From: Heterotrichella gracilis
Lineage: Eukaryota; Sar; Xanthophyceae; Tribonematales; Xanthonemataceae
DNA length: 28,098 bases
Reading direction: 5' to 3'
Assembly (NCBI GenBank): GCA_032358255.1
Contig: JAULBX010028560.1
Span: forward strand, 1-28,098
Shown: one piece after another, positions 338 through 27,871 of the stretch
Position numbering within the stretch: position 1 is the stretch's first letter
Layout: each line of letters starts with the position of its first letter
Position numbers and translations under genes: made by a program
Notes under the pieces: model-generated
Told to the model about the DNA's origin: nothing
Database searches by the model: none
What the model saw: only the letters and a program-made list of their open reading frames with translations

Positions 338-3300
338 TCATGATGCGCATGACGCCGCTAACCCCTTCACCATCTCCATGTCCCACACGTGTCCTACTGC
401 GTGCACATGTGCGTAGTGGCTCTCCTGCGCCGTCATGCAATCAGGATCCCACTGCCAGCCCTGGCTCTCAAACACAAACATGCGGTTCTGCAGCTCACGG
501 ACGTTGAACTTGGTGCACCATTGGGGCGTTGTGCGGAAACCTTCGCTGTAACAATACCCCTGTAACAGCGTCTGGCACAGGTTCAATGCCTGGTCCTCGT
601 AGTCCCAATGCACTGCTATCCTTGCGTGGGGAAAGGATGTGGCTTCCAGTAGCAAGGCTTGGGTATTGGGCACCTGACCTGGCACGTCCCCGGTCCAACC
701 ATGCACCATTTCTTGGAAAACAAAATGGTAGGAGTTGCGTTCATAGTACCACAGATAATTCACGATGATGTTGAACTGAGAATAGGGTGCGTGCTCCCAT
801 GCTACGTTTTTGGCTTCCGTGGTGAAACTGAGGAAAATCGAATTGAAATCATCCTTCCGATGAAGCTGCCGGATGTAATCGCGCACTCTTCTGAAGTGAT
901 TCCGATGAATTATCACCGGAAAGTAGGTCATCGCCCTGAACGCCTCATGCTTGCCTAGCACTTTATTGGTGACCGCTGTTGCGGCTATCCACCAATCGTT
1001 GAAAGGCTGTCCAACTTGACCAACGACCACCGCCTTACCAGACACAAACAGATCGCTGGGGTCCACCACCGTCACAAACACTGTGTCTGTGTCACAAAAG
1101 CCCACGTACTGAGCTGACGTGAAGTTGTCCACCCAAAACATCAGGAGCTGCTGCCGATCCCAGCCGATGTTGTAGTAGGGCGACGGCTCTGCAACACAAA
1201 ATGATAATCTTGTTCATTTACTAAAATGTATGTTTGGTACACTTAATGCTTTTGCATCTATTACAGTTGTAGTAGGGCGACGGCTCTGCAACACAAACCC
1301 AATGATTACCCTCTTTTTGTATGAAAATGAATTGTATGAAAGCAGGTTAAAAGAAAACAAGCTGCTACATCTGTCTGCAGGGATTTGTACAAGGACCTTG
1401 CAAAAAAGGTAATGGCATGAAACACCTGTGATCATCATGAACAATGGCTTGGCTATAACCTCCCACCTGAAAACACCACCAACGCTCGATGCGCACCCTT
1501 GGTCCGCGGCGCCTCGAGCAACCCTTATTTCAATTTCTTTAAATTTTCTTTGCCCACACAGGGCAATGCAATGGTTACTTATGGTACTCAAATCATGTTC
1601 TACATGTTCCCCTTGAAGGCACCATATGGGCATGCGATAAATGCCACGCCTATGCAACCACCCACCCTGACCCACTAGCCCTGCATGCAATCCACGTACC
1701 TGAGAACACAACCGACGCTCGATGCACACCCTTGCTGCGCAGCTCCTCGATCAAGCCCGGGGCATTTTGGTGGTCCGGCTCCTTCTCCCCATCCATGACT
1801 ATGATCAGTTGCACGCTGTTCTTGGGCCAGAACAGCAGGAAGCTGGGCAGGAACTTCTCTCGGTACTCCTCGATGTAGGAGGTGGTCAGGGGCATGACCA
1901 GGGCGATATCTGGCCATTCCTGCGAATTAAAAATATATTTGATGTTTTAACTCAGTTTTAGCTTAGTTGTTAAACGATAATGTATAATATATAGTTAAAA
2001 CCAAAATGGGAATTTTACTGTAGGTTTTAAAATATGACTTGGGCAGAATGGCATATCTGGGCAACCTCCTGATGCAAACGGTTATATAATATAATATAAT
2101 ATAATATACAGATGCTTACATAAATTAAATGCTCATATTTTACATGTGGAATTAAAAAACATATTTGTTTTTCTAGGGTTGAGTTATGAGAAGTGCGTCC
2201 CCGTGGTTACCAATTATTACCTGCTGGAAGCCCTGCTGAGGCATAAACCCCGTGTGCGAAGCAGACGGCAATGGCAGTGGCGCGTACCCAACCGCCACCA
2301 AATCCTCCACCCAGGCCTGCATGATGACCACCTCTTGGAAACCCCAGTACCCTTCCGTTGCCATGTCATATGCCAGCTGCACGGCACACCACGTTTGGTG
2401 AGAACCCAGATTGGTGGTGACACAGTTCAGTTTAGAGCTACATAATCCTAGCCCCACATAATGCATCCACCGGCAGTGGGCACACTCCCTGGCAGGCACG
2501 CTGTCATCACAACCATTACGTAGTATTTTGAATCCCTACATGACACAACCACCTGTGAAGTATCAGTTTCACCATGAACCAACCGCGAGAGCACAACATT
2601 GTGGGGTTGACAACAAATGAAAACTAGGTTGGCCATGTCATGCTACCTGCAGCATGCAGTCAAACAGCAAATTGCGCATGCACTGCCACCCCCTCAGGAT
2701 CCAGGAGGGAGCCTGTCTGTTACCCAACACATCACACAGGATAATACCTTTTTATTCAGCTGTTAAGCAAGCATCTACTCAGTCAGTTTCACATCATGAC
2801 AAGCCAGTGGCAATGCACCATTACCTGCTGCATGCAATCAAACAGCGTCTTATGCCTGCACTGCCACTCCTTCAGGAACTCCAGCAGGGCGCTGGTCTGC
2901 GCATACATCTGCACCTCCAATGCCATGTCTGTCATGTAGTCATGCGGGTTGCGCACTTGGTCCACGGTGCCTGACACACACACCACATTGCTTTGTCGGG
3001 AACAATTGGTAGCACGAATGCGGTAAGCGGCATGAGTGGCTGGCCAGTATCTGCCACATTGGAAACAGTGTTAGACAAACGCTCTAGGACAGGGGTGAGG
3101 CATACCCAGGCATGCTAAATTGAAATCTATTTGTACGGGGTGTCCTTCAAAACCATGATCTGTCAAGATACAACGTACATCTGGATGATTTGAAAAAAAA
3201 CTAGGCTACAGATCAGCTGAATTGCAGATACGTACCTGACACAATGTGCAAGACTGACTGCTAATCTGGCTGTATTGCTGGAATGCAAGCATGTAACTAA

Positions 3301-6300
3301 CTAACTAAATAAATAACCTGACACAAACACCACATTGCCATGAAGGTCCCACAGCAGGCGCTGCGCCCAGTAGCTCCTCCAAATGTCGGTCACCCGGAAG
3401 CTCACAGTGGATGGCATGTACAGGGCCCAGAAGGCGGCGTGGTAGTGCAGCGTGTTTTGGGAGTTGTAGGGGGTGAAGACCCCCTTGGAGATGGCCAGGG
3501 GCTTGACCTCCGTGCGGTCCAGGAACTGCACGTGCCCGATGCGCGAGGGGTACATGATCCTCCAGATGGCATCGACATCGGGGTCCAAACCTGCAGCAAC
3601 ACATTAAATAACGACTATGGTGACCATTTCATTCAATCTTATTACTCACATACCAATTCATTTCAATTTTAGTACTCGTCCAGAAATCCAGAAAGTTGTT
3701 CTCACCAGGAATTCAACCCGTTTTGTTTGCTTTAGATGTTACCTACATATTACCCATGTACCATGCAGCAACACTTTATCACGTGCCACCCTAGCAACTC
3801 AGCCCACCAGACATTGCCGACACCGCCATCACAGCCACCCACACACCCGCACCCTGCACAGGTCCACACCTGCACAGCCCTGCTGAAACCACAATAGCAA
3901 GCACCCTAAAAGGACCCTACAAGCACACTACAAGCACACTACAAGCACCCTGCATAGGTTCTATACCTGCGCAGCCCTGCTGTAGATGATTACCCATGTA
4001 CCATGCAACGAGTTCAACGCGCCTGCACAGCCCTGCTACCCCCAAAATTGCAAGCACACTAAAAGGACCCTAAAAGCACACTAAAACCACTCTGCATCTT
4101 ATGGGGTCTACACCTGCGCAGCCCTGCTGGATGGTTGCATGCACCTCCTGCTGCCTGTGGGGGGCGGTGGCGTTGGGCACCACACCTCCAGGGCACTTGA
4201 AAAACCCTTCCTGGAGCACGTGTTCCAAGGGGTACCCCCTGGGCCAGATCTCGCACACGCCAAAGTGCGTGTATGGGTTGGCCACGCCATGGCCATGTGG
4301 GGTCACTGTGGTGTAAGTGTGTGGTGGGGTGATCCAATCCAACCCAACCCCTGCACCATCACACACATTTAGTCCGGTCAGAGCTGGATGGAAAAGCCTA
4401 TTGAAACACAGTCCTTCACTTCGTAATATGATATTAATGTGTTGGCGGACCATGCCATGCTTCATGCACGCTAGCTGCGTTTAAAAACGCGCAGAGATGG
4501 GAGGCCCTATGACAGGCACACCTGGCGCAAGGCGTGCATGGCCAACTCCTAATCTGGGCGCATTTACCGCATTGCTGGAATGCATGTAATGACTCAATTT
4601 CAGGCCACCTAGTAACTCAAAGGTGTTGACATCACATGATACGGCAGTGCAGTGGTATGCATGTATACCCTGAAGCCTAAACCCCAAACCCTTAAATCTA
4701 CAGTTGCCCCCCCCACCTGGTTTAGGCGCGTTGTCATCATCGGTCTCAAAAATGAGCTTCGCACCATGCTGCACAGCAAAGAAGGGTTTGACTTACCTGG
4801 TCAGATTGCCATTGTTGGTTTTGGAAAAATGGAGAAGAGTAAGCTATTTGGTTTACTAAACAAATTAATTCTAGTACATTTAATTGATTGAAATTTTGGA
4901 AGCACAAGTGTTCATTAAACAGCACTGTGTTTTGATCTGTAGCTTGTTGGAATCCTACACATTGCACTTGCACTCTTGGCTCCGTACCTGCATGGCGTAC
5001 AGGTACCCCACCATCTCGCCGGCATACGTGCGGTGTGGCTGTTTAGGGTTCTATGCTTAAAGGTGAAGGGTTTTGCACCATACATGCATGGCGTAGGTGC
5101 GGTGTGGCTGTTTAGGGTTCTATGCTTAAATGTGAAGGGTTTTGCATCATACACGCATGGCGTAGGTGCGGTGTGGCTGTTTAGGGTTTAGGATTAAGGG
5201 TGAAGGGTTTTGCACCATACACGCATGGCGTAGGTGCGGTGTGGCTGTTTGGGGTTTAGGATTAAGGGCCTTGCTCCATACCTGCATGGCGTACAGGTAC
5301 CCCACCATCTTGCGGGAGTAGGTGCGGTAGGGCAGCTTTTGCGTGATTTGGTACCCAAGGCCCTCCTGTGCCTCTATTGACAGGAAGTGCACACCAGGGT
5401 GGGACCATGTGGCGGGGGTGGCTGTATCCCCAACCTGTGGGTGTGGGGACAGGCACCGCTTAGTGGGGATTGAGGTAATATGGATTTTGTTGTTGGCAAA
5501 GGACAAATTTAAAGGGATAGGTAGGTGGCCAGAGCAGGTTAGCACGTGTTATAACCAGTGCCTGGGTACAACCAGGGGTATACTAATAATACTAAGTTAG
5601 TATTATTATTATACCCCTGGTACAACACCCGTGCACCACACGTGCAAGCTGTGCTGCTGATCAGGCAGTTTCGCAGGGATGCATGTGGCCACAAATGGGG
5701 ATTTTGGTTGTCACCCGGGCCTCGAGGTAAAAAGGTGTAGCATCCCTGTGAGCAAGGGCAATGAGATAATGATAGTCCTATTATCATCTTATTACCCTTG
5801 CTGGGAGGTGGTTGGATGTGGTGGACAGGAGCCTCGCATAGGTGGATAGGTGAGAAAACCCTAAACCCTAGCACCACACCACCTAACCACCACCTGCTAG
5901 CAGCGACAACAACTCCTCGCCCAGGTGGTTCTCATGATAGCGTTTGCAAGGCATGGTGCAAAGCGCTAGGCGTCCTTCATGAGCCGCTTTCCTGTGGACT
6001 GAAAAGGCTTGGGAGTTGTCTTGCATGCAGCCAGGTACAGTAGGTATAGTGCGCTAGCTTTGGCATAGTGCCATGTGACTGCAATTGACTGCCCAAAAGC
6101 CTATGCAGCAAGTGAAACTGCAAGGACATTCATAGACCTAGGCTTAACACCACCTGCACCCCACCAAAGGTCCCAATTGTTGACTAACCACCCCGATGCA
6201 TGCATACACAATTCCAACTTCTCAAAAGTGATGTCGTAGTGCCGTCAGGACACAATCAGCCCTTCATATGTTGCTTGGCAGATTGAATTCTATGTGCACG

Positions 6301-6755: not shown

Positions 6756-7435
6756 AGCGGTGCGTAGCCAGCATCAATCAACCAACCCTTTTCACTGATA
6801 CGAGCTGGGTTTCGTTTATTGCGCGGGGAGCGTCAGCCAAGTAACACATTGCACTAGACTGGTGTGTAGTGCACCAAGTTCATCAGTGCCACACCCCGCG
6901 TAGGGAAGTAAGGCAATCCCTTAAGCACCATGGTGCAAAGTTGCTGTGCAAAGCAGTGCGTCAAGCACGAGAAATAGAACTGTCCGCAGCAACCACGAAG
7001 TTTAAGCAGGCGTCCTTTACTGTTTGAGCTCGCCCAGTACTCGAGTGCTGCTTTTAGGTGGCGGTACACTGTGCTGGGTGGGGTTTGGACTCCATCATGG
7101 GTGACAAGCAGTTGGATTTTTATCCTTGCAATATGATACGCACGAGTGAGGATACAGGGTAATTCAACACGCTGTTGCACTGGTGAACTCGAGTTCCAGG
7201 CAATTAGAAATGACAACGGCATGCGCTGGAACCTATGAATCTCCAAGTCTGTCACCACCATGAAAACCCTAGCAGGGTTGAGGTACAGGAATTGAATCAC
7301 CATGATTACAGTACCATGGTTGAATGACAGGTACCGCCTGCCATTTGTGCTCACCAACAAGCGCCCAGACACGCAACCCGCCACAACCGTAAAACCCTAG
7401 TAGGGTTCAGGCGCAGGTACGCAAGACACAGGTAC

Positions 7436-7705
7436 CCTACAACGTGCGCTGCCGCGCAGCCACTTCCAGCTTCATGAAGTGCGTCACCACCATTTAAACC
7501 CTTGTAGAGTAGACATACAGAGATGGTGTAAGCAGTGCCAGGACACTGTCCTGAGGCCTCCTGAGACCCGAGGGCTGGTTGGCGCAAGGCATGTAGGACT
7601 GGCAGCTAATCTAGCTGTATCGCTGGAACGCATGTAAAGGGTAAAAACAATGTACAGCTACAACGGGCACAGCGCAGCCACCTCCGTGAAATCCCCCACC
7701 GCTAA
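7436..7705 (-). repeat. Two partial copies of LysM-gene terminal exon
   Basis: 7436-7494 (CTGCCGCGCAGCCACTTCCA then GCTTCATGAA) and 7651-7705 (GCGCAGCCACCTCCGTGAAA) match 7757-7814 in the last exon. The copies lie beyond the stop codon chosen here. They leave open that 7752-7925 is not the last exon. Confidence 0.75.
7579..7637 (+). repeat. Dispersed repeat family A, diverged copy
   Basis: TTGGCGCAAGGCATGT, then CAGCTAATCTAGCTGTAT and CGCTGGAACGCATGTAA, between the two partial copies of LysM exon 11. It lacks a long tetranucleotide tail. Confidence 0.7.
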
Positions 7706-7751
7706 AACCCTAGTAGGGTTGTCATACAATTTCCAAAGAGACACATATGCC

Positions 7752-10700
7752 CTACGACATGCACTGCCGCGCAGCCACCTCCAGTGCCAGCTTCATGAAA
7801 TCCGCCACCACCATGCGGGGGGGCAGCGGCATCTCCCCCTTGCGGAACACAGTCACACCCGCAGCCCTGCCCTGCAGCATGCGCACCAGGTCGCCAGGGG
7901 GGAGCGGCACGATCGACACGTCCACCTACAGGGGCGGGAACGTGGGTGAGGACGGGGGGGGGCACGATTGCGACATGGATGGTTTGCCCTTTAGGGCAAA
8001 GACCCCAAGGGGTTGTACGATCTTGCAGTGCTAGGAGTGCTACATGGTTGACTGCATAGTCCCATTATCGCACCACCCACTCCCCCCTCACATCACTTTG
8101 TCAGTCACAGCCACCTGACTACAACCAAAACCCTCCCTCGTACCCTACACGCACCCACCTGATCATACCTGGGATTGCACCAGCCACTCCGCGGCCCCCC
8201 ATCGCTCCTATGTACAAAAAGCCACCACAGTCCCTATCTGCTACCCGGGTTCAAAACCAGGCACCCACCAGCCACCTCCTCACACCTCCCAGCACCCCCA
8301 ACACCAATCACATGACCATCATCACCCCTTGCTTATGCGCCCCTCCCCACCCTTCCACCCCCACCCCCAACACCGCACCACCCCCCAAACCAGCGCCACC
8401 CACCTGATCATTCCTTGACCAGGATCGCACCAGCCACTCCGCAGCCCCCGCGTCCTTCCGATCTGCAAATGCCAGCACATGCGCCTCCCTGCTCCCGGGG
8501 TCCAAATCCTGGGCCAGGTTTGCTGTGAGGAATGCGGTGGCCCCATCTCGGTATGCCAGCATGGGCACGCAGACGAAGGGGAGAGAGGACCACCAGCCTG
8601 GGAGGGGGGGGAACTTCATGTGACACCAGGGTGGAGTGTCATTCTTTGCAGATGAATAGATTTCTTTTACTTTCGGACAGGAAAATAGGTGTGAAGAGTT
8701 GTGTAGATTATGCTGAGCCATTTAGAAGATTGTGGATTCCCCAACAGTGTGTGATCGGGGCAGGCCATAACTGCTGGAAATAAAAAAAGCGGTAGATTGA
8801 TACTCACGCATAGAATCATCCCACTCACCACTGTCCCCCTCCGTGCACATCACAAACTGTGCCGCTCATATCCTACCCATCCCCCACCATACCCTCCCCA
8901 TGGCAAGGCCAAACCCTAAACCCTAAACCCTACCTTCCGCCACAGGAGGCAGCTTCTTGAGCCGGTAGCTGGTGCTCAGCGACTCCTCAGTTTCACCACC
9001 ATCCTCGCTCCCCTGGCCACCTCCTACCCTCCCACTCCCATTACTGCTCTCCCCCCCTTGCTGCGGCGAGCTCCCATTGCTGGCCTCCTGCTGCTGGCTC
9101 TCTTTAGGCCCCGTGGCGGCATCAACGGGCATTTGGTCCACATTTGGGGTGGAGCGGGGGGTGTAGGCGAATTTGCGGGACCCCGGCGGGGGCTTCTTGC
9201 TGGTCCCCTGGGGACGGATGATTTGGTCCGCAATGACCACATTTGATGGGCTGGGATCGGAGGGCTGGGACCGATCAGAGGGTAATGATTGAGGCTCCTG
9301 ATCGTCGGCCGCTGACGCTTGTGGCACATCAGGCGATGGGGGGGCGTCATTGGCTGAAACTCTAGGGAATTTGGGCTCGGCGCCGTTCATGAAGACCCTA
9401 GGGTATTTGTCCTCGGCGCCGCTGGTGGAGGCCCTAGGGTTTGCTGGTGTTACGGCGGTGCTGGGAGACCCTTCTGCAGGGTTTCCGTCACCAGCAGAAC
9501 CCTTGGCGGTGTCGCGCTGTTTCGCCTCGCGCGCCAGGGAGTCCAAATAGGCCCCTAGCTGGGCGTGGGTCGAAATCTGGGAGCTGCGCACAAATGCCAG
9601 CTCCAGCCCCATCTTATCCTCTATTTCAGGGAACTGCACCAAGCATAAGAGCACATTTGAGGGGCACATTTCAGGGGAATTGGCACCAAGGGAAGGGGCA
9701 CACATCAGGGAGCTGCGCAATGGAGGGGGCCAGGTGTGCCGCAATACATTTGCCATGAAAGCAGCAGGGGCACACTTTAGGACCCTGCACCAAGAAAGGC
9801 TGAAGGGGCAAAAGTCAGGAAAATGCACCAAGAAAAGGGCCAGTTGCACCCACTCGATGCATTTGTTGGGCGAATCTGAAGGGGCACATTATAGGGGGCT
9901 GCGCAAGGAAGGGAGGCACAGCAGTCTCAATGCACTGTGCTATATAAACTTGAACGCAAGGGTTTTGCATCCTACCGGATGAAGGTTTAGGGTTTAGGGC
10001 AGTCCAACGCAAAACCCTGCCCAAAAACCCAAAACCCTAATCACCTCACCCGCATGGCTCCCTTTGCAATGAAGGACATGGCCGCATTGTTGTCCCGCGC
10101 CAGGCGAACCATCTCGACGGGGTTTAGGGTTTTGGGCACCACCCTCCCCGCCTCGGCCCCGGATGGGTCCTCTACACCCACGATGGAGCTCATGGTGGTA
10201 GCATCGTCCAGGGCCTGCGCAGCAGGGATTCAAGGGTTTGTGGGGAATTGCAGTTTAACTACACCATCATAGTGGCACTTTACAGGGCCTTTGCAGTAGG
10301 ATTTCATGGAAAACAAATCAAGGGGTTTAAGGTAGGAGGTAAAGAACAGTTATTTTTTTGTCAGTTCCTTCACACCCACGATGGAGCTCATGGTGGTGGG
10401 ATTGTCAAGTGCCTGCACAGTAGCAAATATAGGGCTTTAGGGTACTTTGCGCGTCAACCCTGCATATGGTGCATTCAAGCACAATAGGCTTCCACCCCTT
10501 GTGACTGAAAGTGCAGGGTTTGACTAGGGTGGTTTAAGCACAGCACGCAACCTGCACACCATCAATGCGCACCAAGGTGAAGCCTGTCAAGGCCCATACA
10601 CTTCAGACTGCACAGGACTTCCCACCAAAAAGGGACAGGGTTTTCACATCGGACAAAACCAATTCCCGTCCGACGCAAACCAAAAAGCAGCGATATCGAT

Positions 10701-14815: not shown

Positions 14816-14896
14816 CAGCCTTTGACCCAGACTGGCCGGGCAGACCCAGACTCGCCGGGCAGCCCACTGGCAAGACCCAGATTGGGCGGGCAGCCA
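14816..14896. repeat. Direct repeats of GACCCAGA(C/T)..GGGC
   Basis: GACCCAGACTGGCCGGGCA, GACCCAGACTCGCCGGGCAG and GACCCAGATTGGGCGGGCAG follow one another at about 20-35 bp spacing. Confidence 0.8.
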
Positions 14897-15063
14897 TACA
14901 AGTCATACAAGTCAGGTAGCCATATGAGTCACTGCCATACGATGCAAAAGCGTTGATAGCACCATGATATGAGAAATTTAAAAGCAGGACATTCATTAAC
15001 CTAGGACGGCAGTATGTGCATGGATAGTCTCATATTTGAAGCAGGACATTCGTTCTCCTAGCC

Positions 15064-15112
15064 TACATGGATAGTACCCTACATGGATAGTACCCCACAT
15101 GGATAGTCTCGC
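15064..15112. repeat. 16-bp tandem repeat, 3 copies
   Basis: ACATGGATAGTACCC(T/C) repeats at 15065, 15081 and 15097, with a related GCATGGATAGTCT at 15019. The sequence GCAGGACATTC also occurs twice just upstream (about 14984 and 15040). Confidence 0.8.
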
Positions 15113-15239
15113 AACTCCTTGCAAGCGATGAAAATTCTACACCACTTAGGACAGACACCTGCCATATTACTGCCCCCTCCCCTCCCTTAACCTTGCCCAT
15201 CGCGCCCACCACCAGCGCAGCCTGCCCAGAAAGCCCTAG

Positions 15240-18200
15240 CTAGGGTTGCACCAGGGTTTTGTAGGCCGCCTCAAACTCGCTGGGATCCTCCAGTGCCTTC
15301 ATTGCCTTCCAGTACACCTCACCTGCACTGATGGCACCCCCCTTGGCCCCCGCAGCATATCGTGCCCAGCACAGCCACAGCGCCACGTCATCACTGCCGT
15401 GGGAGGCGGCGGCAGCCTGCGAAACGGGGAGGACTTTAGGTTTGGGGTATAGATGTGATTAGTAAGTACCCTGGCGCAGCATGTGCAAGACTGACTGTTG
15501 ATCTGGCTGTATTGCTGGAATGCATGTAACTGACTGACTGAGGAATAATGCCCTGATGCTGATCATAGATAATGTGACCTTGGGAAAGCACGCCGGGAGT
15601 TGCAGTCATTCACTCATAGAAAGACGCCACAGGATTGAGATGTGTGGATCTAAGGGGCAGCACATATGTGGGTGTCAAAGGGGGAAGCTGTGATCATTCG
15701 ACCTGTGAGGAACACCCTTGCAAGCTGGCCTTGGGCTTGCGACTTCCAGTGCAGCGCGCACGTGAATCGTCTGCACCCCGCACATGTCCATCACGTGAAA
15801 CACAAATGCCCTAGCGCAGGGTTTTGCACGCACCTCAAACAGCCGCGCCACCCGCTTGGCGTCTGCGTGCTTGCCCCCATGGTCGCAATCTGCAATTTCC
15901 TCCCCAATCACTCCCCGATAGAAGTCTCCCCCTGGCGAGGGCACGTGGAGCAGAGGCACGTAGAACTTGCGCATGGCCTCAATACCCTTGAGGTGGTTTA
16001 GGGTTTTGGCCGCCGCGGCGACCACAGCACCCATCCCCCCCTGCATGGCATCAAAGCGGGAGTTAGCGGCAAACCCTACCTTCCACTGTAAAATCCTAGT
16101 GTGGATTGCTGGGCATGTGTACGAGTGCTTATCAGTCAAAACTCTGCAGGCTGTGTGTGCGACCCAGAAGACCGTAAAGAACTTAGCTGAACCCTATAAT
16201 TCTGTGTTTAGACCTAAATACAACCACCCAGCTCTTGTCATAAGCTTGTGCAAATCAAGCGGACTGTGCAGCTGTTCTGCTGTACGCAGTTGGGCGACAC
16301 CTAGGTAAGAGGTCTCCTCGCCTTAAATGGTGAATGTACAGCATCGCTATGGTAACCATTTGTACAGATAGATTGTTTCAAGAATTGGTAGTCGTCAATA
16401 TGGTATGCAGGACTGAAGAAATTTGGATTTACTGCCACCCCTGCTTCTTACCGTGGTGGGACCCTTGGGCAGACCAGTCAGGGTTTTTGCCAGCGCCTTC
16501 AAAACCCTCTTGAGCCCAGCCCCACACCCTGCCAGGACCTCCATCCCCAGCAGCCACAATTGCGCCCCCTGGCCGGGGGGCATGCATTCCAGCGCATGTA
16601 GCACCACCCCCTCCAGCTCCTTTGCGCCCCCTGGCACCTCCCCTTCACCCGACGTCGATGCCACCTCCCTTGCTACCGCCTGGGCCTCCAGAGCCACCCT
16701 CTGGCACCAAATGTCGGCGGAATGCGAGGGGGATGCGCCCCCCCCGCAGGCCCGCCGGGCCACGTTTAGCGCCGCATTTTGGTCCCCTAGCCGGGCATGG
16801 ATGGCTGGCCATTGCAGCAAGAGGCTCTCGGTGGCTGCCCCTGCAGACAGCAGGGGTGGCAGTTGGACACAGCAAATTTCATGAAACCGTACACATCAGG
16901 CCCTATTTGCCAGGTCATCGATCGCTTGCCAATGCACCTGCTGTGTTGCAGGGTGAGCGACCCCAGGCCAAGAGGAGGCATTTAGGGTTTAGGGTTTAGG
17001 AAGGAGCGGGGTCACATGCATTGGTTGACCTGACTGTGCGAGGGACCTTGTTACATGAAAGACTGGGGAAAGTAGGAGTTTATTGTAGGTATACATACTA
17101 GACCATAAACGTGATTCTAATATCAGGAGCACAGCAAGGGTAAACCCTAAACCCTACCTGTTTCAAATGCGCGCTCAATGACCCCCAGCAGGCTGCGAGC
17201 CATTTCACCCCCTTGTTCGTCCACTCCCCCATCCTCCCCCTGCTCCCAGTGCCCCTTCAGCTGTTCCAACAGGAAGGAGGCATAATACTCATACATGGCT
17301 GGGGAGGGGAGCTGCGCCACCCCCTGTTGGTATACCGCCACCGCGCCCTGGAGAGAAAACACAGCAGGGTAAAAGCTAGGGCAGGGTGGGGTGCGCAGAT
17401 GTATATTTGAACGATTTTCTGGTAAATATTGTGTGCATGCCATGGCTTCGTTCATGACTACTCACACTGCACCCTGCAGTACTTAGCCACAAGCAAAGAA
17501 TGGTACACAGACAACTTTGGTGTGTGACTACCACCTTGCGTAATAAATGTATAGATTTAGTAGCACGTCAGTGTCAGCAACGCCTAAATGCTACGAGCAT
17601 GCCACATAAACCCTACAGGTACATCCAGAATCTATTAAACATCCAACCTACCTTCCATGGCTGATCCTCCTGTGCCTGTGGCCTGGGTCCCATGCACCGC
17701 CTTGCCCGCACATCCCACGCGCCCTCCTCCCCTTGGAAATCCCTCTCAATCCCCTGGTACACACCCTCCTCAAGGGCAGACACACCCTGCGCAACAAGGC
17801 CACGTGCGTTTGCATACGAAGGATGCAATAAGGGCCCTTTTAATGCATCCATATTTTGTTTCAAACCTGATTGCGCAAATTCCTATAGAAACTCCCCGGC
17901 GTACTAAAAGTGCCTTTTTGTTAATATAAGCTATATTAGTTCCAAGACTTGGTCACTATACTTTATTTCAAAGCCCTCAATCTCTTGTATGCATGGCCTT
18001 TCAGCACATTTGCAGCACAGGCATGATGCCAACAAGGCACTAAGTATTCTAACCAGACGCGGCGTAAAGAAAGGAGCTTGGAAACACAAAGTACAGATGC
18101 AAGCAACATCTTGCTCCAACACAAACAATTTTCCGGATGATTTCTCGAGCAACAAGACCTGGCAATGCTCACCCCATTATCGGAACCTTACGCGCCAAAA

Positions 18201-20037
18201 CTCCTCTAGGATATCAGCACCTATTGCGACCCTAGGGGCCGATTCCCTCCTAGGGTTTCTCACCTCAAAGCTGAAACCCTCCAGGGCCGCCAGGATCTGC
18301 CTGCGCAGCCCCAAATCCCTTGGGATGGCCTCGATTGCGTTGTTGATCACGATTTTCGCCACGCCTCCCGACAGGACCGCGGCCACTGCGCGCTCCGAAT
18401 CATCTTGAGCGCCCTCCCCTGTGGCATTGATTTGCAAAGCGTTCATTCCCACGCCAATACCAATAGTAAAAATGTGCCCAGCTGAGGTAACAGGAGATGC
18501 ACTGTGCAATATCCCCCTGGCAGCCCCTTCTTACTTGCTGACATGCGTTCCATCAGTCAGATTCACATCGATGAAAGATGCTGCCAGGAAGGGTGAAACT
18601 GACACGAGTGGTGTTGTCGGGTGCATTGTCTTGCTGTCCTTGCTTCACTATCGCATCGTGTGTACAGCAAATGTTGGATACGGCCTGGTTGCAACTGATT
18701 GCAACTGATTGCAACTGATTTGCTCCACCCAAAAACCATACAGCCATCCTCACCTGGATCAGCAATCCCCAGCACCTTGCGCCGCATCCCCAGCCGCTGG
18801 CAGTACGCCAGCTCCATCCCCAGGTACTCCACCCACATGGCCCCCTGGGAGCGGCACATGCGCAGGCCACGCTGCATGAGCGCCCGAGCGGCGCGCGGGT
18901 TGTGGTTTGAACCCAGCTCCCAGGCCGCGGCGGTGCACCACAGGGGTGCGGAGCGAGGGTGCAGGCGCAGGGCAGCGGTCAGCGCCTGCGGGGGATGGGC
19001 AGGGTTTTGGTTGGATCACATTCCTCCTCCGCCAACCCCACCGCTCCATCCAGCTTTGGCAGTTGCCGAATGGTCATGGTATCCTGGCAGCCAGCCCATC
19101 CAATTTCTAACAGGTTTCAAAGCGATCCCCAGTGCCCATTACTTCAAAACATTTGAACCTATATTGAAAAATTCTGAATATATAATGTAAAAAGATTCCA
19201 ACACCATATTTGCTTCCTCCACCCGCCCCTCTTTCTTTATGCCCCACCCACCTTTGACATCTGCCTGTTTGACTTTGTCTCCCTGCAGAAGGCCAGCCAG
19301 CCCATCCAGATGCGCAGGTCGCCCTTGAACTTGCGGGTGGCGCGCTGGAAGATGCTGTGGATGCGGCGGTTGATAGCAAAATCCGCAAGGGAGGTCTTCC
19401 CGCTGATGCCGCGGGAGATGGCGCGGGTGCTGCGGATGGCCTCGAGTTTCTTTTCGTATTCTACATACCTGGTGGAGAGAGGTAGGGGGGAGACACCAGG
19501 TTATGCGGTGCAGAGAAGTTGAAATTGCAAGTAAAAGTGGAATCCTTCGCAATCCAGTATTACGTACATAAACAAGGGGGTTAGAGGGTGGGGGTATGTG
19601 GATTGTACAGAGAATGAAAGAATAGTTTGGAGGGTTGACGAACATTCATTGCATGGCAAGACATCCAGTGTGACATGCGGCAAGGCCAAGCATGGTGGCG
19701 AGACATGTAAGGAGTTGGGAGGGATATCGTGCGAGGGCTGCAGAATACCCTAATGCAGGGTTTCAAATCAGTCTGGCGTCATGCAATGCAGAGGGACATG
19801 CAAATTGCCACCAGGAAAGCCAATCACCGGCAATGCCCCTTGCATTCCCAAACCCTAGCAAAACCCTTACCTCAGGAAATCCAGCTTGAGCGCTGCCCTG
19901 CGCTTGAGCCCATACTCAAATTCCGAGCGTTTCTGGACGATTGCGCGGCATTCTGCCTTGGAAAAATAGCCCCTGGCTTCGAAATCCTCAAGCTCTGGGA
20001 GCATAGCCTCGAGGTAGAAGCGCACTGTGTCCGCCAT
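15240..20037 (-). CDS. UTP6: U3 snoRNA-associated protein 6 (UTP6), HAT-repeat protein, 9 exons, 637 aa
   Basis: Exons: 20037-19871, 19468-19252, 18985-18754, 18418-18264, 17786-17652, 17347-17158, 16840-16452, 16085-15834, 15416-15240 (TAG). All junctions are GT-AG in phase. UTP6 belongs to the UTP-B subcomplex of the nucleolar small-subunit processome, which processes the 18S rRNA precursor. The N-terminus is diagnostic: MADTVRFYLEAMLPELEDFE, then KRSEFEYGLKRR and DFLRYVEYEKKLEAIR (residues 1-70). HAT-like repeats follow: IWMGWLAFCRETKSNRQMSK, ALRLHPRSAPLW, MWVEYLGMELAY and GIERDF. The C-terminus carries further HAT-like units (VARLFE, LWLCWARYAAG, GEVYWKAMKALEDPSEF). Length fits the family: human is about 600 aa and plant proteins are somewhat longer. 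The exon 8 acceptor (16086) is the least certain, since CAG before GGGGGGATG near 16050 is an alternative. It is divergent from the SET gene. I saw no exon-end copies in its introns, unlike its neighbours. Confidence 0.93.
15471..15541 (+). repeat. Dispersed repeat family A copy
   Basis: CTGGCGCAGCATGTGCAAGA, then CTGACTG, ATCTGGCTGTATTGCTGGAA and TGCATGTAAC, with tail TGACTGACTGA. It lies in the last UTP6 intron. No clear target-site duplication was seen. Confidence 0.85.
18691..18720. repeat. 10-bp tandem repeat, 3 perfect copies
   Basis: GCAACTGATT three times, in the UTP6 intron between exons 3 and 4, about 35 bp from the exon 3 donor. Confidence 0.95.
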
Positions 20038-21066: not shown

Positions 21067-24000
21067 ATGGGTGTGTCCACCCTAGCCACCCTAGCCTGCA
21101 GCGGGTTGTGTGCCCCTCACTGCACACGGCGCTGCAGCGCACGTGCAAACCCACGACAACTGGGTACTTCTTGTGTCACGCTGAGCCAGTCAGCCAGGCG
21201 AGACAGCAGAAGGTATGAAGACCCAGCTGTCCTCATGTGCCTGGCATGCAAGCATCATGCATATGCACTGCTTACAGTCCAGGAAGCAGACAGGGCGGTA
21301 CATATCTCAGAACAATGTTTGTTCTCTGAAGTTATACTGGGTAGAGAGCGCCCCGGCTTCTTTCACCCGTCAAGAATTATCATTGGAATTATGCTCCCCC
21401 CTTTTCCATTACTAGCAATAAATCAGGTCTTTTCTTTAGTACGACACCTCTGCTTGGGTACAACCAGGGAGCCAACAGGGTCCCGACTAGCTAGCGCCAA
21501 AAAACATTTTCTCCACCTATTAGGGCTGCCCATGTACCACCAGCTTTGCAGACATGGCATGTGTTGCCCGTGCAGGCATGGCGTGTATTGCCCTGCACGC
21601 ACCCCCGGGATCGGGGACCAGCTTTGCCCGGGAGTTGCACGTATATGACAAGCATTTTGGCACAAATGCCAGAGTTGCACATGGGTCTCCCAAAGTATGG
21701 CAGGGTTGTCATCATCATTGACCCTGTAGTGCAGGGCCTGTACCTAGCTCACCATGGCAACCCTCCCCCAACCTGATACCCACCTTCAGAACCCAATCCT
21801 CCCTCTTTGTAAGTGTTCCACAGGGGGATGTCTGCTGGACACGCCCCACAGCACCCCACCAGCACCAGCAGCACCAGCACCAGCACCATGGGTGGTCCCG
21901 CATCGCCACCCTCCCCTCCTCCCCCGCCTGCGCCACCTCCCTTGCTGCAGTGGCTAGTAACACACAGAGAGGCGACTCCGCGCGACCTCAAGATACGGGT
22001 TTCTGATCTGGGTGGAGGTCGAGGAAGGGGGCTAATAGCAGTCCAGGACATCTACCCTGGGGAGGTCATCCTGTCTGTGCCGCTCACCTCGGCATTTGTA
22101 GATACAGAGGTGCGTCCATGCACAACCCTGGGGTGTGCGCCTGTAAAAACGCTAGGGTGCATGTTGCTTTGGTGCTACGCCCAGTGGTACCCTTGTGCGT
22201 ATGCTTTAAAAGGCAGCATGGCGTGTGTCCACTATTGGTGCATGTGTCTCATCAGGGACACACATGTGGTTGAGGCTAATGCTGTGCACTTTGCTTACAA
22301 AGGGCATCACAGAGTCCTGAACTGGCCGGGGTCCCACTGCATCTGATAGACCCATGCACTAAAAGCTGTAATTCTTGATGGCCATCTCAATGCAAGGGTT
22401 GTGTATGACTTGCAGGATGAGCCCGACCTCCCCTGGAGCGTGGCCATGGCCATTCGCCTGCTGGAAATGACAGCCACGTGCCGCCACATGGCGCAGTCAC
22501 ATGACGAGGATTTGCCTGGCGGTGGCACACACACCGATTCGCCTGACGATGAACAGCCGGCAGCAGCAGGTGGCAAGGATTCGCCTTGCGGTGACCCCGG
22601 AACTGATTTGCCTGGCGGAGAAGGTGGGGAGGAGGCCATGTGTGTGTGGCTGGATTCCCTCCCCAGGGACGTTTCCCTCCCCTGGCTGGATTGGGAACCA
22701 AGTGAAGTAGAAGAGTGTCAAGACGAGGGGGTGGCACGCGAGTGCAGGGGGCTGCGGGCCATGTATGAGAGCGCGGCGGAGGTGCGCGGTGAATGAAAAT
22801 CCTGCTGAGGGTTTGTACCACAATGTATTCAAGGACACACGCATTTACCGCCGGAACCTTTGTCCTCCAATAATTGCCCGCGTGTGCATATCAGTGGAAA
22901 TTTTATTACTGAACTGGACAGTGACTTGTGGTCCGACAGAGCTGGGCGGCGCACAGTGTGCTTGGGTGAATCCCATCTGGTTGCTATCATCATGCTGGGA
23001 GGCATAGAACCTTAAACCCTAAATCATAATGCTGGAATGCAAAAGTCACACTAGTTAGTTAGTTACATGCATTCCAGCAATACAGCCAGATTAGCAGTCA
23101 GTCTTGCACATGCGGCGCCACGCAGCTCTTTTCTGGCACTGTTTGAAACACTTATTGATCCCACGCGACTTGAGATTCCTGCTGAAAAATTACACTACCA
23201 TGCAATTACTCCGCCATTTACCTTTTAATGTCTGGCGCACCATCCCCCACCACCCACTCATCTGCGTCCGCTTCCCCTCCTTGCTTGCAGGCATTCGCCC
23301 CCTCCCTCGCCCCCCTTGGCTTGGGCCCCCGAGACCTTGCGTGGGCGCTCTCGGTGCTGCACAGCCGGTGCTTTGTGGAGGGTCCAAGGGGTGTGCATAT
23401 GACTGTCCCGGGGGTGGACATGGCTAACCACATGGACGAGCCCAATGCCGGGGTCAGGTAAAACCCTAGACCCTGAACGCTAAACCCTAAGCAGTATCAG
23501 GGGGTGTGCACATGACTGTCCTGGGGGTGGACACGGCAAATCACGTTGATGAGCCTAACGGCCCAGGTCAGACAACCCCTGAATGAGGAATCCCAACAGA
23601 CCCCAGATGCACTGGTTAGGTGGGGGTCATATGAAGCGGAAGCAAGGAAGGAATTTAAGGATCGGTCAGCTTCTTTAGTTTTCTTGCACAGTGACGCAGC
23701 TGCTTGGGAGCCCCACCGATGGTTTCCCACGAACCCACCTAGTGGTGTTACCTGGCGCAGGTGTGTGCACGGTGTGGAATCGTGCCAGGGCACAGACGCA
23801 GTGGAGGAGGTGTGCACGCCCTCCCCAGATGCTGCCGCTTCCCCCTCGCGCTTTGAGCTGGTGGCGGGGGATGACGTCATCATGTACGCGGGGCTCGATG
23901 CCATCATGTGCATGTGCATGCTGCATGTGTGGCTGTCATGTGGTGTTGATTTGGCATGCCATGATGACATGAGGTGCTGCTTTTCCCTGTTGCTGCCGCC

Positions 24001-25673
24001 TTGCGGTTCGAGCTAGTGGCGGGGGATGACGTCATCATGTACGTGCGCCTCGATGTCAGCATGTGCGTGTGATGTGCATGTGGTGGTTTCAAAACCCTAG
24101 TCTGGTGCTCACAGGCACTCCATATGCATGCGGGGGATGAATATGTGCGCGCGCCTGGATGCCATCATGTGCATGCGCATGTTCCATTTGTGGCTGTCAT
24201 GTGGTGTTGATTTGGCATGCCATGCTGACGCGAGACGCCGTAGGATCAGTAGGTGGTACAAACAGCGCCAGGGAAAAACCGCTTGGCGCCGCATGTGCAA
24301 GACTGACTAGCAGCTGCTAATCTGGCTGTATTGCTGGAATGAATGTACTGACTAACTAATTTACAAACCAACTGTGTGGGTTGATTTGGCATGCCACATG
24401 AGGTGTCGCTGTGGATTATTATTTTATTCTGCACTTTGGGGGTTTTGATCCGCCCCCTTTCCACAAGGGAAGGAAAACGTGGGGGTCGAGCTCAATTTGC
24501 AGCATGGTATAATCCTGCTTCCCCTTTGGTGCCCTGCAGGCAAGGTGATGAGGTGACCATCAGCTACGGCGCCTGGCCCAACGACCTCCTAGTCACCTAC
24601 TTTGGCTTTGCCCCCCCTGACAACCCACATGACTCCGTCGCCCTCTTTTCCGACCTGGACCATTTGGTGACGTGGCATGCACACGCGGCTGCCACCTGGC
24701 AGAACCCTGGCGGCGGTGGTGGGGCTGGTGAGGTGGATGGTGGTGACGCCAGCACTGGGGGTGCGGGTGGGGATGGGGGTGGGGACAGCAGTGGTGGGGG
24801 GTTTGGAGATGGCGGCCAAGTCAGCGTTGAGGGGAGGGTGCGAGAGGGGAGCGTCACAGTGATGCCACTGGAGGAAGCTTTGGGCCGGCCTGCTTGCGAA
24901 TTTACAAGGTGACCTCCTAGGAAACTGGAAAAAGGAAAAATAGTAGAAATGATTATGAGTTGCCGCCGCGGCTCAGAGAACCGGCTGGCCAGGCAACCCG
25001 CCACCCAGAACCCTAAACCCTAAACCCTAGACACTTGAAAACTGGAAGGGCACTCAGTCCTCGGGGCGATTTGGGGATTTGCATTTTGCAGTGTGTCAGC
25101 GTCTCAAAGCTAACTCGTGTGCCCCTGTCTTTGCTGCTCCACAGTGCTTTGAACACCGAACCTTCAATCTCAGGTTCTACACCCTCAATCCTAAGCCCTA
25201 AACCCCAATCCATACGCAGGTTGGCCGTCACTGCCCAGGGCTTTGACCACCGCACCCTGGCGGCACTGCGAGCCCTAGCAACCCTAGGGTCAACCACAGG
25301 CCGCCAACTTTCGATGCGCCACATGCTCACCCACCGATGCCGGGAGCTCCTGGAAGCCTTCCCCACAACCCTAGACCACGATTTAGGGCTTTTGGCTACC
25401 CTAGATGCCACTCCTGGTGACACTGCTGCGTCCATGGCGGAATCGCCAATCCCGGCACCGGCGGCAGCATTGGAAACGGCATCCCAAACGGCGTTGAAAC
25501 CAACCTCTCAGGCAGGAGCTGGGCCGGCACCAGGGGTTGGCAGTGGTGGGGCAGGGGGGAAGGGTGGTGGTGGGCGTGGGAGGGGAGGGGTGAGGCGGGT
25601 GGCACTGGAGTATCGGATCAGCAAGAAACGGGTGCTGGCTAATGCACTGCAGCAGCTAGGACAAGGGGAGTAG
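21067..25673 (+). CDS. SET-domain protein lysine methyltransferase, Rubisco LSMT/SETD3-like, 7 exons, 636 aa
   Basis: Exons: 21067-21212, 21824-22109, 22416-22781, 23291-23457, 23761-23883, 24540-24908, 25220-25673 (TAG). Phases agree at all six junctions. The SET core reads LKIRVSDLGGGRGRGLIAVQ (105-123, SAM-binding GxG), DIYPGEVILSVPL, DEPDLPWSVAMAIRLLEM, LAWALSVLHSRCF, then VPGVDMANHMDEPNAGV (N-H at 312-313, SAM and active site), FELVAGDDV and GDEVTISYGAWPNDLL with catalytic-type Tyr372. The C-terminal part (LAVTAQGFDHRTLAALRAL, LTHRCRELLEAF) resembles the LSMT substrate-binding helical domain, interrupted by Gly-rich low-complexity stretches near 415-460 and 575-610. An acidic insert at about 167-210 splits the SET/I-SET region. 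Exon 1 encodes a Ser/Arg/Cys-rich, transit-like N-terminus. It is supported only by its ATG, donor and phase; translation could instead begin at Met71 (21888). The substrate is unknown. Confidence 0.87.
23052..23120 (-). repeat. Dispersed repeat family A copy, reverse orientation
   Basis: Reverse complement of the family consensus: AGTTAGTTAGTTACATGCAT, TCCAGCAATACAGCCAGATT, AGCAGTCAGTCTTGCACATG, CGGCGCCA. It is in the SET gene intron between exons 3 and 4. Confidence 0.9.
23500..23575 (+). repeat. Partial copy of SET-gene exon 4 donor end
   Basis: GGGGTGTGCACATGACTGTC, CTGGGGGTGGACA.GGC.AA, then CAC and GATGAGCCTAA match 23389-23457. The copy has lost the Asn-His motif codons and has GGTCAGAC where the donor GGTCAGGTAA stood, so the splice site is broken. 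It lies just downstream of the real exon. Confidence 0.88.
23870..24415 (+). repeat. Tandem-like copies of SET-gene exon 5 donor end and following intron
   Basis: TGCTGCCGC.TT..CGCTTTGAGCT, then GTGGCGGGGGATGACGTCAT (23829-23880) recurs at 23990-24038. GGGGGATGA..ATGTGC, GATGCCATCATGTGCATG and GGCTGTCATGTGGTGTTGAT recur at 24130-24230. GTTGATTTGGCATGCC is seen again at 24379. The second copy has a stronger donor, CAT/GTACGTGCG, than the one assigned to exon 5 (CAT/GTACGCGG). Confidence 0.85.
24283..24360 (+). repeat. Dispersed repeat family A copy
   Basis: TTGGCGCCGCATGTGCAAGA, CTGACT, GCTAATCTGGCTGTATTGCT, GGAATG, tail ACTGACTAACTAA. It lies in the SET gene intron between exons 5 and 6. Confidence 0.88.
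25013..25029. repeat. Interstitial telomere-like CCCTAAA run
   Basis: CCCTAAACCCTAAACCC in the last SET gene intron. Comparable short runs occur in several other introns (for example 8915-8933, 12896-12915, 12980-13010, 16981-16999 and 17144-17157), in both orientations. Confidence 0.9.
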
Positions 25674-26943
25674 GTTGACGGAATGTATCATCAATTCACT
25701 CAACGTGAATCATCAAGAGTACCATCGTGTTTTTTGTTGTTGTGCTACCAGCTTCGTATGGGGCAGGAACACAGGTTGCCATGTTGCAATGCCCCACTTA
25801 CCCCCTCCAAAGGGTAGGATGCGATTCTAGGGGCCTCAAGCCCCTTGCATTCAGCAGCCCCGCACCTGCGTTGGTGACAGCCCGTGGGGCAGTAGTGAAC
25901 GAAAGTGGTGCATTCACCCATGGCCAGGAGTGCATGTTGTAAGGACGAGGCAAAGGGTCAAAAAATTTATTGCACTTCCTCACTAGACCTGACAACGGCC
26001 ATCGGTTATAGCGGACCCCAAAGCAAAACCCTTGAGGGTTTCTCCAGGGGAGTACGGTCTGCAAACTGAAACGAGTGTCCACCCAAGGTTGCAAGTTCGC
26101 AGGAACGCAGCTGTGGATGAACAACTGCTTTGGAAGCTCGAAGCGGCGTGTACGACAAAGGCCAACAGCACATGGCTATTATTAGGGTTGATCGCTGGTG
26201 CACACCATCTAGCACCGCACTGGTTTTTGTCGCTTTCTGAAGCACCTAGATGCCCACGTGTTTGCAATCTGAAACATCCTTCCTTTCGAACTACAAAAGC
26301 TGCCTAAGGAAACCGGGGTTGAAGTTTACACTAACATCCGCGCTCGTACCTCGGTAGTGCTAGCTACTGCGCTGAAGCCGTTTCCACGACCATCCGTGCA
26401 TTGTGTACATCCACCAACCCCTTTTGAACCCACCGTGTGTACAACTTTGGCACAAAGGGAAGCTGGTTGGGCACCGAGCGACAGGCTTATAGGCCGCCGG
26501 GCGCCTCTGCCAACCTCTGATTGCGAAGGTAAACGCCAGTACTTGCTTCCCTGAGATAGCTTCCTCCCCATCTGCCATGCTTTCCCTGGGATGGTCCGAA
26601 TGTGGGTCGTGGGGGTGTGGGGGTGTTTTGCCGGGGCAATCCCCGTCGGGGTCTGTCGTTTTTCAACGTCCTTTTGGTGGGGTCGTTGACCTTGCGCCCT
26701 GCCAGCAAACGCCCTCGAACTATATGCATGCATTGTCACCAATGCATGCGCCTAGGGAACAGCAGCTCGCCTTAATTAAGGTGTCCCAGGTGGCCTCCAC
26801 TGGGTTCTAGGGTTAGGTCTGGGTTTCTGGTTCACGTCTTTGCAATTCTAGCCCTACTGCTGGAATCCATGGCCTGCGGATGAGTAGGGGTTCCAGGCCC
26901 CCTTAGTAGGGGTCACAATACCATGGCCACTCCATATTAACTC
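25674..26943. other. Intergenic region downstream of the SET gene
   Basis: About 1.27 kb with no supported gene on either strand. The ORFs show no family motif and no exon-like junction pairs. It should include the SET gene 3' UTR and the upstream region of the next gene. Confidence 0.5.
25938..25942 (+). terminator. Candidate polyadenylation signal TGTAA
   Basis: TGTAA is the usual polyadenylation motif of chlorophycean algae. This is the first plus-strand one I noticed after the SET gene stop, about 265 bp downstream. It is inferred from motif and position only. Confidence 0.4.
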
Positions 26944-27641
26944 ATGCCTGCACAACCCAGTGCTCCCACACTCCACCGCCACCATCCCCACTGCAGGCAC
27001 CCCCCACCACCCCCACCGCTGCCCCTGGGCGAGCGCCCGCCACTGGGGGCCATGGCGCACCACCACCATCCCCACCAGCACCCAGGCCAACCCCTGTATA
27101 ACGAGGTAAGACAAAAAAACCCTGGTCACAACCCTCAAAGCAGACACCCAAAAACAACCGGAAAACGAGAAGCACCTCCAACCTCCCCAAACTCGACGAA
27201 ATCCTGGCGATACCCTGCATCCGACACCCTCGCCACACTCCCCCCCCACCACCACATACTCCAGTCCACCCTGGCCTTTGCTGTGTGCCTCATCCCCAAA
27301 GACTCCCCAAAGCTACTTGTAACCTCCTCAAACCCTAGTTGACACCCCGCCCAGCCCCTCACCCACCCTCCCTGTGATCTACCTACCCAACCCTAAACAT
27401 CAACCCAAAAAATTTGAGAAACCACTCCTTTCGACCCTCGCTGAAAACCCTGGCCCTCGCAGGAGGAGGTTCGGGAGCGCCTGCTGCAGTTTGCCTCTGC
27501 CTTTGCCGTGCGCTTCATACCCAAGGCCTCCCTCCAGCTGGTGCAGCGCGCGGCAGGCGAGGTGGTCGACACGCTGATGATGACCGCACCCCAGGGGGAT
27601 CGGCCTCTGGGGTGCCAGCTGGTGTTCAAGCACTACTGCCA
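26944..27641 (+). CDS. Unrecognised gene, 5' part; may continue beyond the window
   Basis: Two exons can be supported. 26944-27105 is rich in Pro and His and ends LYNE before GTAAGA. 27463-27641 runs from CAG/GAGGAGGTTCGG to CCA/GTGAGT and encodes EEVRERLLQFASAFAVRFIP, then QLVQRAAGEVVDTLMMTA, a helical segment with coding-like GC-rich third positions. The junction is phase 0. The 5' end is uncertain: ATG 26944, ATG 27052 (good context) or an internal acceptor CTGCAG at about 26994 are all possible. If the last donor is not used, the frame stops at TGA one codon later, giving about 114 aa. The presence of partial copies of this exon on both sides (27237-27315 and 27801-27846, the latter keeping GTGAGT) supports it as a real exon, since exons of three other genes here show the same pattern. 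I do not recognise the family. Confidence 0.45.
27237..27315 (+). repeat. Diverged copy of the 27463-27641 exon, 5' portion
   Basis: CTGGCCTTTGCTGTGTGCCT, CATCCCCAAAG and CTCC match CTCTGCCTTTGCCGTGCGCT, CATACCCAAGG and CCTCC at 27495-27535. It lies in the intron upstream of that exon. Confidence 0.7.
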
Positions 27642-27800
27642 GTGAGTGGGGTGGGGATGGTGGTTGGTGTGGTGGCGGTGGCCGTGCTTGTTGGCACTGC
27701 AAAGGGGGGGAGGAGTATATGAGAGGAGAGTTGGGAGTATGAGTGGGATGCATTTATAGTCCGAGGAATTTGGGGGCAATTTCTGTAGACCTGTTGTGCC

Positions 27801-27846
27801 CGCGGCCCCAGGGGTGTCAGCTGGTGTTTCATGCCCGTGAGTAGCG
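27801..27846 (+). repeat. Copy of the 27463-27641 exon donor end
   Basis: CCCCAGGGG, TGTCAGCTGGTGTTTCA and GCCCGTGAGTAG match CCCCAGGGG, TGCCAGCTGGTGTTCAA and TGCCAGTGAGTGG at 27591-27648. The GTGAGT donor is kept. Confidence 0.82.
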
Positions 27847-27871
27847 TGGTGGTGGTGGTGGTGGTGGTGGT
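27846..27871. repeat. (TGG)n microsatellite
   Basis: About eight perfect TGG units immediately after the exon-end copy at 27801-27846. Confidence 0.95.

Follow-up and report, generated by a model that had tools for sequence, protein, structure and literature searches.

The stretch of DNA analyzed here, referred to as the window, comprises the 28,098 bases of contig JAULBX010028560.1 in the assembly of Heterotrichella gracilis (GCA_032358255.1; 68.5 Mb in 903 contigs), and it carries five predicted genes, in four of which short copies of exon ends lie in the adjoining introns. Pfam supported UTP6, STELLO and the SET gene, the last by a Rubisco-LSMT substrate-binding domain; the models of the LysM gene and of a fifth gene had no Pfam match at E≤0.001, and the labels LysM and SET were taken from a preliminary description of the window. 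The best named matches among 44 proteins found with the UTP6 query were from green algae (Parachlorella kessleri, 42% identity), and the genome is chlorophyte-like. Comparison of the window with itself, accepting copies no more than 2.5 kb apart at E≤1e-3 with telomeric arrays masked, yielded 29 matches in 14 families, of which 12 span a predicted exon-intron junction and two touch or end flush at one. The families sit in the STELLO, LysM, SET and fifth genes, on donor and acceptor sides and at identities of 71–100%, and none was found in the UTP6 gene (about 15252–20037) at this threshold. These results bear out the preliminary description, which had reported exon-end copies in four of the five genes, at both splice ends and of a range of ages, including one identical pair (32 of 32 bases; Table 1).

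The same comparison was applied to a sample of the genome. Twenty stretches of 10 kb were drawn, of which L003 and L017 were left out for their low GC content, and a hidden-Markov gene finder was self-trained on the other 18 stretches and the window (208 kb), so that all gene models are predictions. The 208 kb contained 306 introns with a median length of 285 bp and exons with a median of 149 bp, donors like AG/GTGAG and acceptors like TGCAG/G, and were composed of 60.5 kb of exon, 109.5 kb of intron and 38.0 kb of intergenic DNA. The frozen model was run on a hold-out of 40 kb (L024–L027), giving 248 kb for training and hold-out combined; a fifth hold-out stretch (L023), which was bacterial-looking and held no predicted gene and one intergenic family, was dropped after its result had been seen.

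Exon-end copying is real, recurrent on most sampled contigs and far above chance. When each exon was compared with its own intron at ≥32 bits, 20 of 306 upstream exons and 20 of 306 downstream exons matched, against 24 and 26 of 93,330 mismatched exon-intron pairs, an own-intron rate about 250 times the mismatched rate. The matches concentrate at the boundary over the exon interior: of the 40, 27 have an end no more than 4 bp from the junction, 20 of them exactly at it, and 2 are over 40 bp distant. The boundary enrichment whose absence the preliminary description had named as refuting evidence is thus present in this sample. Self-comparison of the 208 kb gave 100 matches, 72 of which touch a junction, compared with 35.3 ± 5.8 per 100 when the annotation was rotated 300 times. 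These matches form 56 families (48 junction-spanning, 4 exon-intron, 4 intron-only and 0 intergenic), and the hold-out added 17 junction-spanning, 3 exon-intron, 2 intron-only and 1 exon-intergenic family. The 79 families of the 248 kb thus comprise 65 junction-spanning, 7 exon-intron, 6 intron-only, 1 exon-intergenic and 0 purely intergenic. The exon copies of the 7 exon-intron families are 0–25 bp from the junction, and among families with an exon-intron pair the junction itself is inside the copy in 65 of 72, as it must be in any duplication that crosses a junction. Altogether 72 of 752 predicted junctions (39 donors and 33 acceptors) have a copy, so that about one splice junction in ten carries a decaying exon-end copy in the adjoining intron.

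We considered it highly improbable that the gene finder or the assembly produced this signal. The finder was trained without RNA and at times calls a copy an exon, which would favor such an origin. However, the own-intron excess is large, rotating the annotation yields half the signal, the hold-out agrees with the training stretches, and a paralog described below identifies the real exon. Most copies are diverged and their flanks differ, and copied junctions occur in 16 of 23 nuclear loci, each on its own contig, as one would expect if the copies were not made by assembly.

Among matches of ≥80% identity, the exon part had a median of 45.5 bp at 34 donors and 48 bp at 25 acceptors. Of these 59 matches, 39 had an intron part of 0–44 bp, 12 had a longer one and 8 fell short of the junction; together with the 6 of 79 families that are intron-only, this makes the earlier statement that the copies are always centered on a boundary too strong. 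A fixed intron extent of 11–14 bp, suggested by hold-out stretch L025, was rejected as merely a mild peak (12 of 59 in the 10–14 bp bin). Alignments of identity 1.00 in which overlapping flanks had paired a stretch with itself were left out of the copy identities. Copies are spaced by a median of 118 bp from start to start (56 families), arrays also hold intron-intron pairs, and direct repeats inside introns are longer and commoner than expected by chance; local direct duplications on a scale from tens to hundreds of bases are present in this genome. The rate of copied junctions varies among loci beyond chance (chi2 56, 22 df), from 10 of 34 junctions in L025 to 0 in L006, L007, L009, L015, L018, L022 and L024, differences behind which expression, chromosome position or local break rate could lie.

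Ordinary short tandem duplication at a uniform rate could give the appearance of a junction preference, with units inside exons purged, units inside introns decaying twice as fast and units at junctions remaining most visible. The local geometry and neutral decay of the copies fit this explanation, as does residual similarity past some matches, and exon conservation does help detection in simulations. We simulated uniform duplication with exon-internal units excluded, both copies decaying and the functional exon copy decaying at a quarter of the rate, first as full tandem units at five ages and second as units of median 60 bp with filler at six ages of 55 trials each, with intergenic detection taken to equal intronic detection in the second. 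Both simulations, which depend on the predicted gene models and the assumed ages and have selection and double decay built in, expect more intron-only than junction families, with intron-only:junction:intergenic ratios of 1.11:1:0.48 and 2.02:1:0.71, the latter corresponding to about 21 junction, 43 intron-only and 15 intergenic families when scaled to 79. Instead, 6 intron-only families were seen against 65 junction families (or 72 with the exon-intron families), and no purely intergenic family was found in the nuclear loci. Counted as single matches, intron-intron pairs numbered 26 against 105 junction-or-exon-intron pairs (excluding the L023 match and one pair each of exon-exon and exon-intergenic type), a ratio lower by a factor of about 4.5 to 8 than the simulations expect; by this count the junction excess is smaller than by families, yet clear. 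Moreover, many high-identity pairs are sharp-ended, sharing 4–20 bp of intron before a poorly matching spacer, unlike the result of uniform decay. Uniform duplication is therefore an unlikely account of the pattern.

The copies decay without coding or splice-site constraint. Decay was measured on 89 pairs, several per family. Where the copy was annotated as intron, mismatches at codon positions 1, 2 and 3 were 10.4, 9.5 and 16.3%; where it was annotated as exon, they were 10.8, 10.4 and 19.8%. Indels broke the frame in 54 of 59 cases, and GT or AG was retained in 59 of 75 aligned copies, a fraction close to the ~0.81 expected at 10% decay per site. Neutral decay of the copy, together with synonymous change in the exon, would give these patterns, and the intron copies have the look of neutral debris rather than of alternative exons. 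It is accordingly very unlikely that copies are retained as functional decoys or alternative splice ends, for which the many retained GT or AG dinucleotides and the copies that the gene finder reads in frame might speak: mismatches fall on all codon positions, most indels shift the frame and splice sites are kept at about the neutral rate. The preliminary description had proposed that the process would supply decoy splice sites; such sites are indeed created, but they decay as if unused.

A pair of paralogous genes in L014 and L018, which we take to be SGNH-hydrolase-like, has common intron positions, and the comparison tells the real exon from its copy. Two L014 introns that hold copies measure 472 and 514 bp (decoys counted as intron), and their L018 counterparts without copies measure 207 and 395 bp. 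Since the copies are present in L014 only and its introns are longer, the simplest reading is that these copies were inserted into introns that already existed.

The layout of copy, spacer and copy, with poorly matching spacers, also resembles a transposon or introner flanked by a long target-site duplication, in which the spacer would be the element. Among spacers longer than 40 bp, 1 of 31 matched another sampled locus. Three spacers were searched genome-wide, in searches that skip very common words and cover a subset of spacers: two were without another match and one had a lone partial 65-bp match at 82%. The 65-bp spacer of the identical pair at 1169 and 1266 has no other match in the genome, the bases past the identical stretch keeping weak similarity (z 3.0), and window positions 1200–1400 matched only themselves and 1169–1200. 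With no repeat family among the searched spacers, an introner or transposon family was rejected, and we judge this origin to be most improbable. Templated filler was likewise rejected: a first scan found a nearby match of ≥14 bp in 34% of 35 spacers compared with 4.5% of controls, an excess that was gone once 16 spacers holding a third copy were dropped, leaving one long match among 27.

The preliminary description had also raised intron gain as a mechanism. Intron birth by duplication of AGGT was examined by aligning the upstream exon's end with the 3′ end of the intron, which gave at least 18 of 30 matching bases in 4 of 344 introns (0.16 expected) and at least 22 in 2; aligning the start of the downstream exon with the intron start gave at least 18 in 0 of 349 introns. 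One flush case in L011, next to which a 6-bp exon is predicted downstream, was judged to be a mis-read copy. We judged one case, the STELLO intron at 2971–3317, to be convincing as an AGGT-type case, and duplication may have given rise to this intron or shifted its boundary. Tandem genomic duplication of AGGT is thus not the general mechanism, with the copies lying inside introns, and is possible in rare introns.

Telomeric repeats are clustered near junctions and associated with the copies. The telomere of this genome is CCCTAAA, with arrays beginning at base 4–7 of six contigs, and interstitial units identical to it occur away from the ends. Telomeric 7-mers make up 2.7% of introns and 0.6–0.7% of exons and intergenic DNA, with 1275 occurrences in 376 introns compared with 115 in base-shuffled introns. 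They peak 0–40 bp inside the donor in both orientations (for example, window 12839–13013 and 5021–5256), reaching 12–21 per 1000 positions 10–40 bp past donors compared with 0–2 in exon flanks, and show a second peak 20–40 bp before the acceptor in the CCCTAAA sense. The hold-out showed the same peaks, plus TTTAGGG 40–80 bp before acceptors. Independently of annotation, across the whole genome, two telomeric units came after CAGGTGAG at a distance of up to 30 bp in 119 places as TAGGGTTTAGGG and in 90 as CCCTAAACCCTA, and came before it in 23 and 20 places, respectively, overlapping matches of one array being counted more than once. The concentration 0–40 bp inside donors may be a finding of its own. 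On another contig (G000:C420:132494-139218), several donor sites have TTTAGGG units on both sides within 7 kb, apparently a larger set of the same kind.

A telomeric motif was present near 39 of 72 copied junctions versus 131 of 680 uncopied ones (odds ratio 4.95, p=7e-10); the association held within loci (odds ratio 3.1) and between the 23 loci (Spearman 0.81). Spacers contained a telomeric 7-mer in 19 of 56 families, compared with 7.5 ± 2.3 for random intron segments, a null that was not position-matched, unlike the test by junction. At acceptor-side joints, 16 of 17 rows showed a CCCTAAA bias, for which the avoidance of AG ahead of acceptors is probably the better explanation. Indels of ≥4 bp between copies fell at a telomeric 5-mer in 8 of 22 cases, a count that has no control and hence was not used. 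Telomerase extension with subsequent annealing to telomere-like exon microhomology was attractive in several examples but fails as a rule, on the breakpoint counts and mixed orientation given below.

We propose, with a probability of about 0.5, that breaks close to exon-intron junctions were repaired with short local duplications, of which the copies are the neutral scars. DNA breaks would arise near these junctions, and their repair would typically duplicate some 60 bp, consisting of the exon end and a few to about 40 bp of intron, with the joint often receiving poorly matching filler or telomeric repeats, which would mark those same breaks. Selection would let products with an intact outer splice site persist; this outer, original site would keep working, and the inner copy would be removed with the intron and decay neutrally. 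For the junction bias of breaks or repair, nicking coupled to transcription or splicing is the obvious candidate. We tentatively extend this proposal to splice junctions as break hotspots, at which nicks coupled to transcription or splicing might fall within tens of bases and repair might leave both telomeric repeats and exon-end duplications, so that introns would grow like conveyor belts on which copies are loaded at the edges and then decay.

Copying could alternatively be directed by RNA or the splicing machinery, for instance if nascent pre-mRNA served as the repair template, or if nicks were linked to splicing or to pausing of the polymerase. The junction preference, the involvement of both splice ends and the lack of purely intergenic families in nuclear loci are what this explanation would lead one to expect. 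However, the copies usually include intron bases, so the template was not spliced RNA, and splice-site strength does not differ between copied and uncopied junctions; we consider such direction quite doubtful.

Several observations weigh against the scars of break repair that we favor. Neither splice-site strength nor exon GC differs between copied and uncopied junctions, and only the GC skew next to donors shows a weak difference (uncorrected p 0.048), so no measured feature accounts for the choice of targets. Introns at copied junctions are not significantly longer than others (donor side 301 vs 281 bp, p 0.54; acceptor side 274 vs 280 bp, p 0.69), and a split at the level of introns, made without a significance test, gave 331 bp with copies and 284 bp without. 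In 29 pairs of ≥85% identity, arrays included, the 40 bp past the match had a mean excess similarity of z 1.0, and given this residual similarity some spacers may be fuller tandem duplications that have since decayed. The 27 spacers had a mean longest match of 10.7 to DNA within 1.5 kb, compared with 10.0 in controls, with one exception of 34 bp. Telomeric microhomology at exon breakpoints (8 of 51, against a background of 9.9%) was not significant, the orientation of donor-side repeats was opposite to simple telomerase extension in 13 of 21 rows, which are not independent, and the telomeric motifs next to donors could act as signals for splicing. The interpretation in the preliminary description is thus partly supported: a continuing local process is, and the slippage or template switching it suggested is not set apart from break repair, fillers matching nearby DNA no better than controls save for that one exception.

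The features of the window are collected in Table 1. In the LysM gene, the 133-bp units at 10895–11293 are a plain tandem array. A dispersed short repeat with a core like ctaatctggctgtattgctggaatgcatgtaac, seen by eye only, lies outside predicted exons on both strands and is possibly a miniature transposon. Part of the assembly appears foreign: L003 (G000:C1, GC 36%) and L023 (C100, GC 35%) contain long intronless open reading frames of bacterial type, presumably Bacteroidota-like, and the GC content of L017 (C43), at 37%, is near that of both.

Table 1. Exon-end copies and other repeats in the window, in window coordinates.
Feature	Position	Strand
Acceptor junction of STELLO (20 bp of exon, 12 bp of intron), copied identically at 1266–1297	1169–1200	-
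Intronic copy of 1169–1200, 100% (32/32 bases), d=97	1266–1297	-
Intronic copy of exon end 1698–1757, 83%, d=233	1465–1524	-
Intronic copy of exon end 2822–2899, 79%, d=178	2644–2719	-
Predicted STELLO intron; 3′ end matches end of upstream exon, flush with acceptor (24/30)	2971–3317	-
Copy array around STELLO junction: 3840–3885, 3935–3982; 3869–3982, 4022–4129	3840–4129	-
Exon-end copy 4979–5034 of 5273–5328 (89%)	4979–5328	-
69-bp tandem array with TTTAGGG-like units	5021–5293, within 4979–5328	-
LysM gene: donor region 7698–7814, copy 7386–7493 (74%)	7386–7814	-
LysM gene: 8152–8261, copy of 8397–8512 (75%)	8152–8512	-
LysM gene: acceptor junction 10168–10225, copy 10366–10423 (84%, d=198)	10168–10423	-
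LysM gene: 133-bp tandem array (3 units) and two decayed copies, from exon with predicted end 10945	10884–11456	-
LysM gene: donor junction 12657–12773, copy 12457–12578 (82%, d=200)	12457–12773	-
LysM gene: acceptor junction three times (96–100% over matched parts), TTTAGGG arrays in stretches between	12839–13054	-
SET gene: exon end 23385–23457, copy 23498–23571 (81%), telomeric motif between	23385–23571	+
SET gene: exon end within 23837–23968, copies 23992–24082 and 24130–24229 (85–87%)	23837–24229	+
Fifth gene: donor junction 27601–27675, copy 27803–27870 (73%)	27601–27870	+
Dispersed ctaatctggctgtattgctggaatgcatgtaac-like repeat	about 3247–3310, 7582–7640, 15478–15545, 23031–23110 (reverse), 24290–24360	

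The proposed mechanism fits known parts: break-born tandem duplications (PMC8355091), telomeric insertions (PMC2246262), intron repeats in Daphnia (PMC4202315) and a junction-crossing duplication in potato (PMC4974935). In Daphnia, internal direct repeats of neointrons are attributed to staggered double-strand breaks and read as repeated break repair that lengthens introns, a likeness to the direct repeats described here; the repeats shared with exons are 4–12 bp there and lie at the opposite end of new introns (PMC4202315). Here, in contrast, tens of base pairs of exon end, mostly with the splice site, are found within introns and often near telomeric repeats. The local duplication across a junction in potato is the same kind of event (PMC4974935), but cases of that type create a new intron or use the new site, whereas the copies in this alga decay as if silent. 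Direct repeats near splice sites across intron types are read as insertion scars in another report, and share with ours their closeness to intron borders, yet those repeats are 4–30 bp and pair the two ends of an intron (PMC11782384). In our case one exon end is paired with the intron interior. Duplications from paired nicks have reportedly been found in plants by Vaughn and Bennetzen (2014) and Schiml (2016).

Short tandem duplications are also attributed, in the abstract of one study, to fill-in at breaks by CST-guided Pol alpha-primase, with no junction preference in that abstract (PMC8355091). Long filler, by comparison, is frequent here. CST is also a telomere complex. Telomeric sequences inserted interstitially at double-strand breaks have been reported as short exact units inside chromosomes and taken as scars of break repair (PMC2246262), a description that applies equally to the units found here. 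Unlike those, ours are concentrated no more than 40 bp from splice junctions and show an association with duplications, and microhomology at exon breakpoints was not significant. The event types are thus individually known, and the pattern across a sampled genome was not found described in the literature searched: titles and abstract openings of open-access articles held no account of genome-wide exon-end copying or of telomeric repeats concentrated at splice junctions, and nothing on point for break hotspots at junctions or telomeric repeats in algal introns.

How intron sequence is gained and replaced over time remains an open question, one mostly approached through rare gains. In this compact alga, with about one junction in ten carrying a measurably decaying copy, the rates and unit sizes of such duplications and their links to breaks, transcription and telomere repair become testable. 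If splice junctions are indeed break hotspots, mutation would be tied to the geometry of splicing, and the process would both supply decoy splice sites and make introns grow.

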